A stretch of 44,689 nucleotides of DNA from Pseudobdellovibrionaceae bacterium (GTDB lineage: Bacteria > Bdellovibrionota > Bdellovibrionia > Bdellovibrionales > UBA1609). The translations under genes and the position numbers were made by a program. Of this stretch, positions 10,052 to 44,573 are shown piece by piece (position 1 is the first letter of the stretch; each line of letters begins with the position of its first letter). Location: positions 1-44,689 of the forward strand of contig JABJQG010000070.1 of NCBI GenBank assembly GCA_018663505.1, read 5' to 3'. A model generated the notes under the pieces. It had not been told where the DNA came from and ran no database searches. It worked only from the letters and a program-made list of their open reading frames with translations.

Positions 10052-11452
10052 ATGAAACTTCTATTCAGTGCATTTTTACTAGCTGGATTATTCTTTACAT
10101 TTGAACAACTAGAGGCAGAGCCCTGGTTATCCAATCGACTGGCCCAAAATTGTGCTGGATGCCACGCTCCTGGGCGCTTAAACCTACCCCCAAAAGGGCG
10201 TCGTTGTACACTTTCTTGTCAGGGTTGTCATGTCAATCCAAATGGCGGTGGGCTTAGAAACCAATACGGAGTTTGGTCTCAGCAAAGATGGATGAGATCT
10301 TTTGCCTCAGATACCTTTGGCAGTAAAATGCAACCCAAACCTCACTACAAGCAGCCCTATATGGATCGCAAAGGTGCGGACAAAAAAATTCTTCCCCCAA
10401 TGAAATTTAAAACTGCCACATCACTAGATTATGTTGAGAGAGAGTATACTAACAAGGTCTACAAGGATTGGCATAAAGAAGCCAAAAATAAAAAAGAATT
10501 TTTAAGCCGCATTGCCAAAGGAGACCCGTATGCCTCTGAAAGAACAAAATCAGTATATGCTGGTGGTGATTTTAGATATATCTACGGACAGTACTCAGGA
10601 GACACTAACGGTAATGATGAATTAAATTTTCCTATGTCATTTGACATGGGCATGAGGTATCGCCCAGTAAGGGAGAAGTACTCTCTAGTCTTTGAGTCCA
10701 GATTTTTAAATATTCCGGGCAACTCTGATCTTGATCAAACCTTCACTACTTCCTCTAGAATTCGTTCGGCGTATTTTATTGCCGATGACTTAATGTACAA
10801 CTCTTGGGTTATGGCAGGATTATACCGCCCAATGTTTGGTAACTACACAGCAGATCACACAACGCTGTCACAAAAAATTTCTGATTTAGATCAAAATACA
10901 GTATTTAAATCTGTTGGGTTTGGTACTGCACCCAACGTTCCATTTTTTAATATTCATTTTATTCAACCACTAAAAAACACCACATATTCGCAAGACAGTG
11001 GTTACATTATTAATGCTGGTGGACGATTTGTCAGCTATAGTGCAAATATCAAACTTTCCTATATGAGCACCAAAAGAACCGCTGAAGAACTTATCAATGA
11101 TTTAACATCTCTTACTCTTGGTGGAATGTGGAAAGATCGTTTAATTTCAGTTTTTGAACTTTTAAATTTTAAAATTGAAGAAAGCCGTGGAGTGATAGAC
11201 GCTGGGAGCGTAGTCACTTTAGAAAATAAGTATCGCTTTTGGAGAGAAAATTACGTCACATTAGATTTACAATCAGCCAACACCCTAAGCAGCCGAAAAG
11301 AAGGCACAGCGACTCAATACTCCCTTGGCATTAAAAGTTATTTACTATCGGGAACAAAAGTAGAGTTAGCCTATGTTTTGCGTAAAGAAGAAAGCCCGGC
11401 TGCCACAGTAGAGATCAACGGCATCCAAATGCAAGGACATATTTACTTCTAA
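10052..11452 (+). CDS. Outer-membrane barrel with N-terminal diheme cytochrome c region
   Basis: The 466-residue protein has a signal peptide (cleavage near LEA/EP, residue 22), then two c-type heme motifs, CAGCH (34-38) and CQGCH (56-60), within 30 residues. The second is followed by VNPNGGGLRNQYG. Residues from about 165 to the end form alternating strand blocks and finish IQMQGHIYF, a C-terminal Phe as in outer-membrane barrels. It could carry electrons across or at the outer membrane, in the manner of porin-cytochrome systems but fused in one chain; that function is inferred. AAGGA precedes the start. The stop codon TAA is the first triplet of the inverted repeat at 11450-11574. Confidence 0.8.
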   Translation: MKLLFSAFLLAGLFFTFEQLEAEPWLSNRLAQNCAGCHAPGRLNLPPKGRRCTLSCQGCHVNPNGGGLRNQYGVWSQQRWMRSFASDTFGSKMQPKPHYKQPYMDRKGADKKILPPMKFKTATSLDYVEREYTNKVYKDWHKEAKNKKEFLSRIAKGDPYASERTKSVYAGGDFRYIYGQYSGDTNGNDELNFPMSFDMGMRYRPVREKYSLVFESRFLNIPGNSDLDQTFTTSSRIRSAYFIADDLMYNSWVMAGLYRPMFGNYTADHTTLSQKISDLDQNTVFKSVGFGTAPNVPFFNIHFIQPLKNTTYSQDSGYIINAGGRFVSYSANIKLSYMSTKRTAEELINDLTSLTLGGMWKDRLISVFELLNFKIEESRGVIDAGSVVTLENKYRFWRENYVTLDLQSANTLSSRKEGTATQYSLGIKSYLLSGTKVELAYVLRKEESPAATVEINGIQMQGHIYF

Positions 11453-11574
11453 ACAGGTGCCAGGCATCTTTTGCGGATGCAGCACACCATAATTCTACAG
11501 TATTGTTTTCATTTTAATTCATTAACCTGAATTATGGTGTGCTGCATCCGCAAAAGATGCCTGGCACCTGTTTA
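11450..11574. repeat. Perfect 46-bp inverted repeat spanning stop codon to stop codon
   Basis: Arms 11450-11495 and 11529-11574 are exact reverse complements around a 33-base AT-rich loop. Each arm starts TAAACAGGTGCCAGGCATC, so both convergent genes read directly into the element and take their TAA from it. It may act as a bidirectional terminator, though no T-run follows. The size and symmetry resemble a miniature mobile element. Confidence 0.9.
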
Positions 11575-12996
11575 GGGTAATGTTCTTACTGGGAATGATT
11601 CACTGTAAAAGGGTTCTGCTGCATCGTTAAACGCAATAGCTCGAAAATTATAAAGAGTATCTGGAGTCAGGTCAGTTATATTCAAAGCGTGATATGTGGT
11701 GAAGTTCACATCTAATGCCGTTGTCATCACTTCACCTGTTAATACATCGGTATACTCAAGTTGCGTTGGACTAGCTATATCTGTGTTCCACTCCACTATG
11801 ATACTTGTTCTATTTGGTTCAATAAATTGAAAATTTGATATGACTACTGGGTTAGATAAAGGCTGACAGTAAGAAATATATATTTCAGATCTCTCCCCGC
11901 CAACAAGTGCCGCCTCAATATGAATTTCATTTGGGACTGATTGATAACTAAATGCTACTGGCTGCCTATCTACTAAAACCTTTAATGTACTTTGATCAAA
12001 ATCAGCATGAGAAAGTGGAAACTCTGTAAGTAAGTTTAGTTTTTTCACCGCAAGGAAACCTATTTGCTGCATAGAAGAGTCGTAGTTTCCGTCTGCAAGA
12101 TCCACAAGGATCCCATTGGATTGCTGAACTGTTTCTAAATAACCATAACCAATTTCATTTTCTCCAGTGGCTGGCAAAGTTTCATTATCAGTATATATAA
12201 TTCCAGATAACAATAGTGGAGCTTCTTGCTTTAAATCTTGTAACTGCGATATCACAGACTCGGGGTTTATTCCGGCGCAGTCTCTATCATGGGCTGGCCA
12301 TTCCTTATGGTTTGGATCAAAAACAGGATCTACTCCTTCTGGGTATTGACTTAAAGAACAAATATCATTCTCATCAGCTACAAATACAACGGCTAGTCCC
12401 GCATCAGCTCTAAAAAAATCTAAAGCACTATTTTCAACTAAGTGAGTGGTCACTCCTTCAATAAGAGAAAATAACCCAACTTCACCACCATCCGAATGGC
12501 TATCTGTTTTAATAGATGTCATATTCTCTCTTAATAAAGTTTGCATATCAGTTGTAGTTAGCTCTGATGATTTAAGGACTTTAGGGTTTCCTGATTTAGC
12601 ATACAGTTTGCCACTATAAGAGCTCTTGGAGCTATGTGCCAGCATCACACTCACATGAACATCAACATCAGCAGGCAGCTCATCGATAAAAGCATCTATG
12701 CCCTCAGCTATTCCTGCACGCTCTGCAGATAAAGATCCTGAAGTATCCACAACAAAAAGAAGATCTATTTTTTTTGAAATTTCAGCATCAGGTTGGATGA
12801 AAGTATCAGAGTAACATAACTGAGTATCAAGCACGTCATCAGGAGGGTCTTGCGGTAATACCTCTGGATTAAAAGCTTCACCAATATCCGCCTTACTTTC
12901 TTCATCTATAACACAGGCCGAAGTTAACAATAAAAAGCCTAAAAGCAAAAATACTCTTATAAACATATTTGTAGAATTATCTAGCTTGTTATTCAT
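11572..12996 (-). CDS. Surface lipoprotein with von Willebrand factor A and fibronectin III domains
   Basis: From the ATG at 12996 the product has 474 residues; an upstream in-frame GTG at 13008 would add four. GGGGGA just before the ATG favours 12996. The signal peptide ends LLLTSAC (Cys28). A vWA domain follows, with the MIDAS metal motif DTSGS in LLFVVDTSGSLS and later AVVFVADENDICS. The C-terminal 90 residues look like a fibronectin III domain (SIIVEWNTDIASPTQLEY..., LTPDTLYNFRAIAFND). Such proteins usually mediate adhesion or surface binding. It is convergent with the diheme barrel gene. Its TAA stop is the end of the palindromic element. Confidence 0.88.
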   Translation of the reverse strand: MNNKLDNSTNMFIRVFLLLGFLLLTSACVIDEESKADIGEAFNPEVLPQDPPDDVLDTQLCYSDTFIQPDAEISKKIDLLFVVDTSGSLSAERAGIAEGIDAFIDELPADVDVHVSVMLAHSSKSSYSGKLYAKSGNPKVLKSSELTTTDMQTLLRENMTSIKTDSHSDGGEVGLFSLIEGVTTHLVENSALDFFRADAGLAVVFVADENDICSLSQYPEGVDPVFDPNHKEWPAHDRDCAGINPESVISQLQDLKQEAPLLLSGIIYTDNETLPATGENEIGYGYLETVQQSNGILVDLADGNYDSSMQQIGFLAVKKLNLLTEFPLSHADFDQSTLKVLVDRQPVAFSYQSVPNEIHIEAALVGGERSEIYISYCQPLSNPVVISNFQFIEPNRTSIIVEWNTDIASPTQLEYTDVLTGEVMTTALDVNFTTYHALNITDLTPDTLYNFRAIAFNDAAEPFYSESFPVRTLP

Positions 12997-16293: not shown

Positions 16294-16436
16294 AATTTTC
16301 TTAAATGCTTCTTTTATGAATTGGAACATTTAACACCAAAAGGCTCAGACATGCGGTTCTCGCCCTTCGGCCTGCGATCCGAACTCGTTTTTGGCGCTAA
16401 ATGTTCAAATTCATAAAAGAAGCATTTAAGAAAATT
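16294..16436 (-). repeat. Palindromic element, copy 1: 75-bp conserved core in unique inverted arms
   Basis: The conserved core is 16328-16402, read on the minus strand. It is 71/75 identical to the core at 34084-34158 and itself has complementary ends (GCGCCAAAA ... TTTTGGTGT). It is enclosed by 34-bp arms, 16294-16327 and 16403-16436, which are reverse complements with one mismatch but share no sequence with the arms of copy 2. It lies between the barrel gene at 16527 (upstream in the direction of transcription) and the aminotransferase start. The rest of this 298-bp gap holds nothing else I can name. Confidence 0.9.
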
Positions 16437-16526: not shown

Positions 16527-17660
16527 TTATCTTACAAAGTACTTATATATAAAATTAATACGATTATCATCTTCTGAAGAGTTATCATATTCAAACTTAA
16601 CACCAACACTTGATTTTTTATGTTCTGTTTTCAAAATATTTTTAGTGAATGTTAAACTAGAGTATTTTGATTCGGTATTTGTAAGTCCTTCAGTAACCAA
16701 ACTTGTGGTAAGTACTGCTTTCAGATCTCCTTTAAGACGAGCTGATAAACTTAGTACATACACAGTGAGGTCCACATGATCACTTTCTGTTTTGCTTACT
16801 AGACCAAAAAGTGCTGGGCTATACTGGCCATCAAACATATATACGCTGCCTAGTGTGGTTGTGTCTGGTGAAGCATTATCACTGTCAGGAAATTTAATAA
16901 TAAGGAAGCTATGAAGCTTATGCCCCTTGTTTATATATATTCCAACAGAAGTCATATCTGTCTTGTTAATATCACCAAAATCAAAATTGTATTTACTGTC
17001 ATAGTTATATCTTGTGAGTTCAATTTTACTAATAGAAAGGCCAAGCTTACTCATCCATTGCTGCAGCCCACTGGAGCTTTTCAGAGCCACACTTAGCCTA
17101 TAACCCATGACACCACTAACATTAGTTGATGTACTTTGATCCGTCTTTGCCCCAGTGATCATTTTTCCAACGGAGTAAGTCACTTCACTGTTTTCCGTAT
17201 CTAACTTATAGCTAATTTTGAACTGTTTCATGAAGCTATCTAACTCAAAATCACTTGAATCAAAATCATCCACCTTGCCGTCTAAAGCCGTAGTCACATT
17301 TAATAGCACTTCATCCATCAAGGATGCCCGCAAGCTAAAACCTGTGTTGTACATGGCAAAATCACCAGACTCTAAATCGTATTCTGAATGCAAATTCCAG
17401 CTTAGGTTAATAGCCTCTTGCTCTTCTCGCCCTATATTTAAATTAATGTCTTTAAAATATTGCAAAGCTTTTTCGTCTTTAAGTTCCTCAGGCGTCGGTT
17501 CACCATCCGCTAAATTTTGAATATTTACTTCTGCTGAATCATCAGCAAATTCTCTTTGATCCTCAGTAACTGGAGGAAGGAAGAGTTTCTCTGCTTGGAG
17601 TTGGTACGGCAGAGATGATAGAATGGCGAATGTTATTGAAATTATTCTGATTTTAGACAT
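16527..17660 (-). CDS. Secreted beta-rich protein, probable outer-membrane barrel
   Basis: This 377-residue protein has a signal peptide (cleavage after QLQA, about residue 23). An acidic linker follows, then long runs of alternating residues with hydrophilic turns (TGFSLRASLMDEVLLNVTT, KISYKLDTENSEVTYSVGK, LTVYVLSLSARLKGDLKAVL). It ends NFIYKYFVR. About 300 residues of strand would suit a 14-16 strand barrel. No family is recognised. No Shine-Dalgarno is seen before the ATG. A GGGGCC/GGCCCC hairpin (17726-17751) lies upstream, within the gap to the next gene. Confidence 0.65.
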   Translation of the reverse strand: MSKIRIISITFAILSSLPYQLQAEKLFLPPVTEDQREFADDSAEVNIQNLADGEPTPEELKDEKALQYFKDINLNIGREEQEAINLSWNLHSEYDLESGDFAMYNTGFSLRASLMDEVLLNVTTALDGKVDDFDSSDFELDSFMKQFKISYKLDTENSEVTYSVGKMITGAKTDQSTSTNVSGVMGYRLSVALKSSSGLQQWMSKLGLSISKIELTRYNYDSKYNFDFGDINKTDMTSVGIYINKGHKLHSFLIIKFPDSDNASPDTTTLGSVYMFDGQYSPALFGLVSKTESDHVDLTVYVLSLSARLKGDLKAVLTTSLVTEGLTNTESKYSSLTFTKNILKTEHKKSSVGVKFEYDNSSEDDNRINFIYKYFVR

Positions 17661-27291: not shown

Positions 27292-28302
27292 ATGATTAGA
27301 AAAAATTTAAGAATCGGTTTAGTAGGCGCCACAGGCATGGTGGGTGAAACTTTTATTCAGCTTTTAAACGAAGAAAAAGTCAGCGTGCAAGAGCTTCGTC
27401 CTTTTGCTAGTGAAAAAAGCTTAGGGCAAAGCATTACATACGAAAACAAACAGTGGCCCATTCAGATTCTAAAGCCAGATTGCTTTAAAGGCTTAGACTT
27501 GGTCTTTTTTTCTTCAGGTGACCCTATTAGTAAAGAGTGGGCCCCTGAAGCAGAAAAGTCTGGTGCTTATGCTATTGATAACTCTGCAGCCTTTCGTATG
27601 AGTGACAATCACTTATTAGTGACTCCCGAAGTTAATGGCCATTTACTTGCTGAAAACCCTCAGCCACAAGTTATTGCCAACCCAAATTGCTCTACTATTC
27701 AATTGGTAGTAGCCCTTAATCCTTTAAAAAAATTTGGACTTAAAAAAGTACATGTGGCCACCTATCAAGCTGTGAGTGGCGGAGGAAAAGAGGCACAAAA
27801 TGAACTTACAAGTCAGATGAAAAATCTTAGTGAAAATAAAAAAATACAAGCCCCTCAGGACTTCCCCCACCAGATTCTCTTTAACTGTATTCCAGAAATT
27901 GGAGGCTTTGATGAGCAGGGATTCTGCAGTGAAGAGATGAAAATCATTAATGAAACAAAAAAAATTCTGCAACTGCCTAAATTACAAATATCCGCTTTCA
28001 CAGTTAGAGTTCCTGTTTTAAACGGACATAGCGAAGCTGTTTGGGCTGAGTTTGAAAAAGATGTAACCCGCGAGGACGTTCTAGCAGCTTTTCGAGAGCA
28101 AGAAGGTCTTAAGGTTATCGACAACCCTAAAAACCACGCTTATCCCCACGTTGTAGAAGCTTCTGGAAAAAACCCCGTTTACGTAGGCCGAGTCCACAAA
28201 GATTTAAACCTTCCAAATACATGGATTTTCTGGGTTGTGGCCGATAACATCCGTAAAGGCGCAGCCCTCAACGGCCTACAAATAGCCGCTAAACTCTTTT
28301 AG
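27292..28302 (+). CDS. asd: Aspartate-semialdehyde dehydrogenase
   Basis: The 336-residue enzyme reduces aspartyl phosphate to the semialdehyde for lysine/diaminopimelate, threonine and methionine synthesis. Motifs: GLVGATGMVGETF (NADP site, 9-21), ANPNCSTIQL (nucleophile Cys), AVSGGGKEA and NGHSEAVWAEF (substrate Arg/His region). Length is normal for the family. It begins seven bases after pssA with no clear Shine-Dalgarno, so it is probably translated by coupling. Its TAG stop (28300-28302) includes the first two bases of the RAYT cassette's left inverted repeat. Confidence 0.95.
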   Translation: MIRKNLRIGLVGATGMVGETFIQLLNEEKVSVQELRPFASEKSLGQSITYENKQWPIQILKPDCFKGLDLVFFSSGDPISKEWAPEAEKSGAYAIDNSAAFRMSDNHLLVTPEVNGHLLAENPQPQVIANPNCSTIQLVVALNPLKKFGLKKVHVATYQAVSGGGKEAQNELTSQMKNLSENKKIQAPQDFPHQILFNCIPEIGGFDEQGFCSEEMKIINETKKILQLPKLQISAFTVRVPVLNGHSEAVWAEFEKDVTREDVLAAFREQEGLKVIDNPKNHAYPHVVEASGKNPVYVGRVHKDLNLPNTWIFWVVADNIRKGAALNGLQIAAKLF

Positions 28303-28412
28303 GTACGGACACACCTTGGTGTCTACAGGGTGTCAAATCGATAGCTCAAGAAGTCTTGAGTTTTTTTGTGGGAGACATGGATATTTGAGGTTAAGTACTT
28401 CAAACAAACAGT

Positions 28413-29222: not shown

Positions 29223-29528
29223 AATACGTTATGTCGTTTAATCAACTCTCATATTAGATTTATTTTCTATGGATGAAGGATTTACTCAGATATCTATTAA
29301 AAGCCCCCCCTATATATTACACTTGATAGTTGAGAACGAAATGAAGTCTTGGTTAGCTTATTTAGATACTATGAGTTTCTCTCATGATAGAATCTGACAC
29401 GTAATCTTAGTTTGCTTTAAAAAGAGCCTGCTATTTGTGGCAAATGTGACATGGTGTAGACACCAAAGTGTGTCCGCACCTTTAGAAGGTTTTTGACATG
29501 ACCGCCGTTGCGTGATTTCATATTATCT

Positions 29529-33565: not shown

Positions 33566-33955
33566 ATGTCTGAAGAAATTTATTATTCAACTGGAAGAAG
33601 AAAAACAAGTGCTGCAAGAATATTCCTAAAAAAGGGATCTGGCCAAATGACAGTGAACGGCAAGAAAACTGACGAATATTTTAGAGCAACAGACAGAATG
33701 ATTATCCAACAACCATTTGTTGCCACAAGCACAAAAGGTCAGTTTGACGTAATGATCACTGTAAGAGGTGGTGGAATTTCTGGACAAGCCGGCGCAATCA
33801 GACACGGTATTTCAAGAGCTTTAGTTTTGGCTGAAGAAACTCATCAACCCAGCTTGAAAAAAGAAGGCTACTTAACTCGTGATCCTAGAATGGTTGAGAG
33901 AAAGAAATACGGTAAAAAGAAATCCCGTAAAAGTTCACAGTTTTCTAAACGTTAA
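33566..33955 (+). CDS. rpsI: 30S ribosomal protein S9
   Basis: The 129-residue protein shows [70 protein letters not shown] and the C-terminal SQFSKR, whose last Lys-Arg reaches the tRNA in the P site. AAAGGGAAAC precedes the ATG. It is the last gene of the rplM-rpsI pair, followed by a strong terminator. Confidence 0.98.
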
Positions 33956-33979: not shown

Positions 33980-34008
33980 AAAAGCCAGAGTTTATCTCTG
34001 GCTTTTTT
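33980..34008 (+). terminator. Rho-independent terminator of rplM-rpsI
   Basis: AAAAGCCAGAG (33980-33990) pairs with CTCTGGCTTTT (33996-34006) around TTTAT, followed by more T. It is 25 bases after the rpsI stop. Confidence 0.9.
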
Positions 34009-34044
34009 TATTTGCGGAGGGTCCAAAAGATAATTTGGGAAAAG

Positions 34045-34197
34045 TTTCTCAAGTTATTGATCAACTCACTTTTAAATTGCAATATTTTGCGCCAAAAGCG
34101 AGTTCGGATCACAGCCCGAAGGGCGAGAACCGCATGTCTGAGCCTTTTGGTGTTAAATATTGCAATTTAAAAGTGAGTTGATCAATAACTTGAGAAA
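34045..34197 (+). repeat. Palindromic element, copy 2: 75-bp conserved core in unique inverted arms
   Basis: The core (34084-34158) is the plus-strand counterpart of the core at 16328-16402, with four differences. It contains a GCCC-GAA-GGGC hairpin and complementary ends GCGCCAAAA/TTTTGGTGT. It is enclosed by perfect 39-bp inverted arms, 34045-34083 and 34159-34197, whose AT-rich sequence is unrelated to the arms of copy 1. It follows the rpsI terminator in the same orientation as rpsI. The following 219 bases to 34416 contain only an orphan AGGAGGT at 34369. Confidence 0.9.
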
Positions 34198-43122: not shown

Positions 43123-43307
43123 CAAATTTCTTTTCCATAAATATACTTCTTACATTATTACACACCCATCTACATAGGTATAATAGCAGTTAAACACTGG
43201 CTATTATAAAAAATGAACGCATGTTGTATTGTCTACATAAACCGTCAGAAATTGACCATAATATCTACGATATTCAGTCTCTTCTGCATTTAAGTTTATA
43301 CTGAAAG

Positions 43308-44573
43308 CTATAGCATTTGAGGATCTGTAATATACTTTGAGTTTAGATAACCGCACATTTGGAGTATTTTAAGCTTGAAATAATGCATATTTCGATATCC
43401 ATACCCACTTCTTTTTAAAGTTTTAATAACATGGTTCATTCCTTCAGCTAAACCTGAGCTAACTCTGTAGATAAAGTAGTTTTTTAAAGTTTCCCACCTC
43501 GAAGTCATATAGTTGTGCCATTTATGGAGTATTGTAAACCCTGATTGCCAAATCCAACCACCAATTTCATCAAATATTTCACGCGCATCCGTAACAGATC
43601 TTGCATTAAAAAAATCATGCATACGTTCTTTAACTAATTCCAGTTTAAAAAAATCTTCATTTTCAGTCATTAAATCAGAAATATGCCGCTGTTCTGTCTG
43701 GTCTCTTCTTGATGCTTTTTTTAAAAATAAAAATCTATATTTTCCTCGGCTTAACATTTGTGTGTTTGAACCATTTTCAGTTTCACCATGAAGTGTTTTT
43801 CGAGTTTCGTTCACAGCATTATCAAATGATTGCATCACATGAAACCTGTCCCAAACAAGTGTAGCATTTGAACAATGCTCTTTCACTGAAGCCCCGTAAG
43901 CATCATGCATGTCGGCAGCTACAACTAATATTTTTTCACAAGCATTTTTACCAATAATTAAAAAAAATTCATCTAAGGCCTCTTTACGCCTTGAAGATGA
44001 TGTCCAGATCACGCGTCGAGTATCTAAATCACAAATTACAGTTATAAATAAATCATCACGTGTTTCCCCTTTTTTTAATTTTCTCCGAGCATAAACTTCG
44101 TCCACACAAATTCTACTTATTTTAGGAATTCTATAACTTGATAACATTGCTTTCATTCTTTTATAATCAAGTCGCCATGTTGTTGAGCTATCTTCTTTTA
44201 ATATTCTTGCTACTTTCGCTACGGGTGAAATCTCACACATGCGCCCAACCCACCATGCATAATCTAATGTTTTATGTGGGGTTTGTTTGGATAAAAAATT
44301 TAATTTCTCTGTGCGAACTTTTTTACAAAATTTGCAAAAACCCTTTTGTCTTCGAAATATTATATAACAGTGATTTGTAAAAATCGGCATGTGCTGAACT
44401 TTAACTTTATATGAACCATGGCCAGGCTCCATCAGGTTATTGCAGGTAGAACAGTTCATTTTACTGCTTTGATTTCGTACTAAATGTATTTCAATTAAAT
44501 GTTTTGATAGATATTCTTTAAAATCTATAACTTTATGCTTTTCAAATTTAAAAACTCTAGGTAGATTTAACAT
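43308..44573 (-). CDS. ISL3-family transposase, full length
   Basis: The 421-residue protein has N-terminal zinc-binding cysteine pairs (CSTC and CKFCKK), a helix-turn-helix region (SPVAKVARILKEDSSTTWR) and a DDE core: Asp in ISRICVDEVYAR, Asp in VVAADMHDAYGA and Glu in SSGLAEGMNHVIKTLKRSGYGYR. This matches ISL3-family transposases in length and order. Nothing is disrupted. A matching second copy's C-terminus lies at the opposite window edge, facing inwards. Terminal inverted repeats could not be defined from the flanks (43180-43307 and 44574-44689). Confidence 0.93.
   Translation of the reverse strand: MLNLPRVFKFEKHKVIDFKEYLSKHLIEIHLVRNQSSKMNCSTCNNLMEPGHGSYKVKVQHMPIFTNHCYIIFRRQKGFCKFCKKVRTEKLNFLSKQTPHKTLDYAWWVGRMCEISPVAKVARILKEDSSTTWRLDYKRMKAMLSSYRIPKISRICVDEVYARRKLKKGETRDDLFITVICDLDTRRVIWTSSSRRKEALDEFFLIIGKNACEKILVVAADMHDAYGASVKEHCSNATLVWDRFHVMQSFDNAVNETRKTLHGETENGSNTQMLSRGKYRFLFLKKASRRDQTEQRHISDLMTENEDFFKLELVKERMHDFFNARSVTDAREIFDEIGGWIWQSGFTILHKWHNYMTSRWETLKNYFIYRVSSGLAEGMNHVIKTLKRSGYGYRNMHYFKLKILQMCGYLNSKYITDPQML

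Follow-up and report, generated by a model that had tools for sequence, protein, structure and literature searches.

Palindromic repeats of the Bdellovibrionales with a conserved core and mirrored arms: a probable mobile family maintained by hairpin-templated copying

A hairpin element with a conserved core and long inverted arms occurs twice in the window analysed here, 44,689 nt of contig JABJQG010000070.1 from a Pseudobdellovibrionaceae bacterium (assembly GCA_018663505.1). It probably represents a set of palindromic mobile repeats of the Bdellovibrionales in which the core is recognised, the arms are kept mirrored by hairpin-templated copying, and the arms of aged copies have become saturated with changes. 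It is best filed as a new palindromic mobile repeat family with arms kept by a templated, strand-symmetric process. A long-standing question is how paired positions on opposite sides of a stem can both change with no mismatched stage in between, and the arguments on it have mostly come from single loci or from reconstructed ancestors. The repeat family would serve as a natural archive of the way DNA keeps both sides of a hairpin matched, and would be a further mobile repeat, specific to the order, in which an internal loop close to the tip of a long hairpin is the conserved part.

Two copies in the window

The first copy lies on the plus strand. Its left arm (34045-34085, 41 bp) is locus-specific and finds an exact inverted match in the right arm (34157-34197), which mirrors it; between the two is a type-A core (34086-34156) consisting of GCGCCAAAAGCGAGTTCGG, an apical hairpin CCCGAAGGG and CCGCATGTCTGAGCCTTTTGGTG. 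With the partly paired ends of the core included, the inverted repeat extends to 54 bp at 94%, and the copy folds with −89.5 kcal/mol, a z score of −16 relative to shuffled sequence. Upstream is rpsI, encoding ribosomal protein S9 (33566-33955, plus strand; Pfam Ribosomal_S9, E 3e-48), which has a terminator-like hairpin of its own, judged from the sequence, at about 33982-34010.

The second copy, on the minus strand, has a type-A core at 16328-16402, an arm downstream in the sense of the core at 16294-16329 (36 bp, 97% to its partner) and the other arm, its inverted partner, at 16401-16436. It folds with a z score of −11 relative to shuffled sequence, and the gene upstream (16527-17660, minus strand) encodes a 377-aa product with no Pfam match. 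The initial annotation had matched the core within 34045-34197 to the one at 16328-16402, and this was confirmed, with 95% identity over 75 positions. It had also described perfect 39-bp arms; these are indeed perfect in the first copy, where they reach 41 bp, while the word is limited to that copy because the 36-bp outer arms of the second contain one mismatch.

Other repeats were seen in the window. A 47-bp perfect inverted repeat with a 33-nt A+T-rich loop (11449-11575) spans both stop codons of a convergent gene pair; part of it, ACAGGTGCCAGGCATC, has 80 matches in the genome, at about 40 places, and the whole resembles a REPIN belonging to an ordinary REP family. An inverted 38-nt pair of 84% identity (28301-28338 and 29444-29481) with GGACACACCTTGGTGTCTACAGGGTGTC possibly belongs to another REP-like family. 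A low-complexity repeat of the ATCATCATGATGAC type (1599-1859) lies in a minus-strand gene and possibly encodes a His/Asp-rich metal-binding stretch, and an inverted 165-bp pair of 78% identity (3-167 and 43251-43415) is found near both contig ends.

Copies and arms in the window genome

The window genome (3.78 Mb, 72 contigs) contains 40 copies of the core with three apical variants, A, B and C, and all 40 are flanked by long, near-perfect inverted arms of 26-70 bp. The left arms of 36 copies were concatenated and searched against the genome, the nested or related copies L022, L023, L024 and L026 being left out; each tested arm matched its own two positions, with four further matches at chance level (E 0.08-0.54). 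The initial annotation had proposed checking whether arms are always inverted and always unique; in this genome all copies have inverted arms, and the arms of the 36 tested copies are unique. The idea that arms copy DNA from elsewhere in the genome, in the manner of guides or spacers, was rejected, since the extra matches were at chance level.

Homology between the arms of different copies was measured as a z score against dinucleotide shuffles, a measure that gives 84 in the related genome G029. In the window genome it was 15.6 for the main type-A copies and 3.2 for type C, while type-B arms showed no detectable homology between copies (z 1.1), though their cores are near-identical. The initial annotation called the arms of the two window copies completely different; for many copies this is too strong, as the main type-A arms show weak though significant homology, which type-B arms lack. 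The arms of L005 and L007 align over 45 bp, and each of these copies is closely mirrored. Mantel tests of core against arm relatedness were significant across all copies and across all type A, and gave no signal within the main type-A group or within type B. Neither a recent whole-unit duplicate nor shared terminal inverted repeats were found in this genome.

The confinement of every tested arm to its own locus, the unrelated type-B arms and an arm mismatch (about 1.3-1.6%) close to the divergence of the cores, as if both were equally young, are what would be expected of core insertion with local capture. In such a process, the core would attach to a 3' end beside a gene and, through its hairpin, prime a copy of the flanking strand, leaving one native arm and another that is its inverted copy. 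We consider this unlikely; the homology of type-A arms to each other argues against it, as do several observations on relatives and gene ends presented below.

Nested arrangements were also observed. In L022, L023, L024 and L026 a type-A core sits in the apical loop of a type-C core; the outer arms are unique, the inner arms are partly shared, and copies differ in the orientation of the inner part. Another nested pair, its inner core reversed in orientation, is present at 1483-1581 of L239 in genome G078.

Distribution and structure of the core

A covariance model of the core found matches in 44 of 141 genomes of the order, individual matches being read in part. At a stricter cut-off applied to 369 genomes of the phylum, 44 were positive, 42 of them within the order; one of the two outside it, G294, contains a true motif with arms on reading. 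The element is thus almost restricted to the Bdellovibrionales. Scans of genome contigs with a first, tighter exact pattern returned zero matches, and a looser one returned eight loci, all in Bdellovibrionales assemblies; no match was obtained in viral contigs with the exact patterns or in phage and plasmid records by BLAST. A search of the openly available literature on Bdellovibrio relatives found no repeats of this kind. At one locus (L169, contig C21 of G042), three tandem copies with 129-nt spacing were seen, of which only the last is closed by a mirrored arm.

Across relatives, one side of the core has the fixed letters AAAARCGAGTTC, and the opposite side has TGTYTGAG together with a T run. 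Between these fixed sides is an apical hairpin whose sequence and length vary with paired changes, and below them lie the arms. RNAalifold detected two-sided changes at 17 of 26 pairs in the relatives, several of them inside the core. G-U pairs occur in the covarying core on one strand, and because they replace G-C pairs there, the core-sense strand is the likely folded strand. CGAG opposite TGAG has the potential to form tandem G.A pairs adjoining a C-G pair. The core can be described as an internal-loop motif that is structured and strand-specific.

A conserved, covarying core with G-U pairs on one strand would also suit a functional structured RNA or a bidirectional terminator at gene ends, its arms selected for pairing in the transcript. 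Against this, Rfam gave nothing at gathering score in the window, and six element loci gave only matches far below that score.

Evolution of the arms in related genomes

G029 holds 75 core matches in 1.5 Mb, and its arms, like those of G042 and G013, are homologous and common to several copies, which local capture would not produce. Copies with same-sequence arms, named by the initial annotation as contrary to its reading, accordingly occur in related genomes and not in the window genome. In 39 sampled G029 copies, the inner 27 bp of the arms give 1053 pairs, of which 1049 are Watson-Crick and the remaining four G.T. Arm differences between these copies comprise 5768 compensated and 152 one-sided changes; with tens of copies per genome and about 38 compensated differences for each one-sided one, it could be measured how fast, and in which direction, one arm is copied to the other. 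Divergence reaches 29.6% in the arms and 2.5% in the core boxes. The unpaired spacers outside the inner arms diverge about as much as the arms, suggesting that the arms are free except for pairing and are not hypermutable.

G029 copies share a terminal inverted repeat, TATACCAATCCGGTTTGAATTTTGCGG, at least about 24 nt long, and pairs with 0-2 arm differences have flanks whose identity is at the random level. Such near-identical units in unrelated flanks indicate that the whole arm-core-arm unit moves and that the arms travel with the core, again in opposition to local capture. The insertion of a core with an inverted duplication of local DNA, one of two mechanisms put forward in the initial annotation, is not supported in view of these units and of the shared arms of relatives, as well as of the residual homology of window-genome arms and of the hypF case described below.

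Near-zero mismatch alongside 30% divergence could alternatively be explained if arms were re-made at each transposition, one arm and the core moving and the second arm arising by snap-back copying, so that a new insertion starts with perfect arms and arm sequence drifts as the lineage goes on transposing. The comparison of orthologous positions between G029 and G042, members of one genus, is compatible with this explanation, shared positions not exceeding chance in a test of low power (23 reciprocal best hits, odds ratio 0.83, p 0.75). Under such re-making, nearly every copy would need its own long-separated transposing lineage plus a recent insertion, and no element-linked polymerase or replication protein was found; we hold it to be fairly improbable. 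Also doubtful is the proposal that only the tip of the hairpin is hereditary, each move templating one arm on the other, with an arm sequence that is fully replaceable and a mirror that is restored.

The near absence of one-sided intermediates is unlike classical compensatory evolution, which would leave such intermediates, and is difficult to reconcile with arms selected for pairing in a transcript. Arm mismatches point in the same direction: 71 are G.T and 68 are A.C, with neither a G.U excess nor a strand bias, which fits a DNA-level process (the G029 percentages in this analysis include the outer spacers and are not a mismatch rate). The second mechanism of the initial annotation, a selected RNA with coevolving arms, was right in pattern, coevolution being very strongly supported in G029, and probably wrong in its cause, the arms giving no hint of selection on an RNA.

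Core orientation varies as well. The core is flipped within its outer frame in 5 of the 32 scorable G029 copies, and L023 and L024 of the window genome likewise have their inner core flipped relative to that of L022.

Genomic setting and an insertion in hypF

Both copies in the window are, as initially annotated, in sense orientation downstream of a gene. This does not extend to the whole genome: among 39 window-genome copies, 20 are only antisense to an adjacent gene end and 6 only sense. Nine of the 39 lie between convergent genes and four between divergent ones, and in family f8 the convergent setting accounts for 13 of 20 copies. A gene end faces the core-antisense side within 70 nt in 29 of the 39, at a median of about 17 nt. 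Most arms come to an end 0-30 nt ahead of the stop codon that faces them, and any overlap is about 17 bp at most, whereas arms captured locally would be expected to run into coding DNA.

Proximity to stop codons and the convergent placement of f8 copies are points in favour of a structured RNA or bidirectional terminator. The orientation bias makes it less likely that the core strand acts as RNA within the neighbouring transcript, and one copy lies inside a gene; taken with the arm data above, we regard this explanation as quite unlikely. A terminator role of the element is possible, and its placement at gene ends may simply reflect tolerated insertion sites.

The intragenic copy, in the window genome (L021/L051, contig C20 of G000), is an in-frame insertion of about 55 codons in hypF, between the motifs VDDSLVK and LRRGRG, and the frame of 858 codons stays open across it. 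Removal of the whole unit leaves 11 residues between the flanking motifs, against 5-9 in three relatives, and hypF approaches its usual length only after both arms are removed together with the core. This single case, compared with distant relatives, makes it most likely that both arms came with the insertion; neither appears native, as one would have to be under local capture.

Candidate mobilising enzymes

In the window genome, target-site duplications showed no excess over mismatched left/right flank pairs, and neither there nor in the other loci examined did a neighbouring gene recur. The window genome and 113 of the 141 genomes of the order have genes for Y1 transposases, and the hairpins adjoin gene ends, features expected of a non-autonomous element of REP/RAYT or IS200/IS605 type moved by such an enzyme. 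This origin is nevertheless highly improbable: seven element-rich draft genomes (G042, G037, G013, G028, G036, G015 and G001; 83-99% complete) have no match to PF01797 (Y1, TnpA_REP), which led us to reject Y1 transposase as the mover, and the REP design lacks long copy-specific arms. A reverse transcriptase, as in a retroelement, was rejected on similar grounds, PF00078 having no match in the element-rich drafts G042, G036, G018, G038 and G007.

A model for arm maintenance

We return to palindromic mobile repeats with arms mirrored by hairpin-templated copying. The spreading unit would be the whole hairpin, that is, arm, core and mirrored arm; whole-unit spread is seen in G029, and in the window genome the case for it is hypF. 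The core would be kept because it serves for recognition, probably in the form of a folded single strand, as its conservation and covariation suggest; the part that stays fixed is the internal loop, CGAGTTC facing TGTYTGAG, below the covarying apical hairpin. The arms would need only to pair, their sequence being otherwise free.

Template switching during replication, or some other repair templated by the hairpin, would carry a mutation from one arm into the other or erase it, and arms would drift between copies yet mirror each other within a copy. The same templated process, or recombination between arms, may sometimes flip the core. Template switching is favoured because homogenisation of arms together with inversion of the spacer is its signature during replication, and we infer that it lies behind the observed matching. 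It reportedly homogenises inverted-repeat arms and inverts spacers in yeast genes (PMC8604942), and reportedly maintains hairpin stems through multibase compensatory changes in RNA genes (PMC8794818). In none of the copies read had the non-palindromic core and the asymmetric spacers been "corrected" to palindromes, and selection on the core therefore has to be assumed.

The family in the window genome would be old, with arms almost or fully saturated that consequently look locus-specific. We infer that this genome represents an older state of the process seen in G029; for type B, whose arms show no homology, their common descent is an assumption of the model.

Comparison with known systems

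MITE-like palindromic interspersed repeats include ERIC, RUP, Nezha and similar families. Like these, the element is short, intergenic, multi-copy and hairpin-forming, without coding capacity, and in G029 the whole unit is found in many unrelated flanks and has a shared terminal inverted repeat. Unlike these, it is conserved at the tip and not at the ends, its arms are sequence-free yet mirrored, and no target-site duplication was detected in the window genome. We know of no parent transposon for it.

A REP is a palindrome of 20-40 bp with a stem sequence common to its copies, and in known systems REP and REPIN hairpins are recognised as a single strand. The element resembles REP/REPIN systems with RAYT in being palindromic and near gene ends. 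It differs in that its stems, about 26-70 bp in the window genome, are copy-specific and not common to copies, and in its independence of Y1 transposase, to which the seven drafts without a match point.

The attC site of integrons is a folded strand with conserved unpaired features and a variable apical part, in which structure is kept over sequence. The element, a folded strand with conserved unpaired features and a variable apical part, is like attC by analogy only; its boxes, arm design and arrangement differ, and no cassette arrays were seen.

In arm behaviour the element, with arms matched within copies and different between them and with flipped cores, resembles inverted repeats homogenised by template switching, in which arm identity persists within a locus, with spacer inversion in the yeast cases; coding palindromes of nematomorph mitochondria have been described as such repeats (PMC6649704). 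The cases reported there and in PMC8604942 and PMC8794818 are separate, unrelated loci, whereas the element presents tens of copies of one hairpin.
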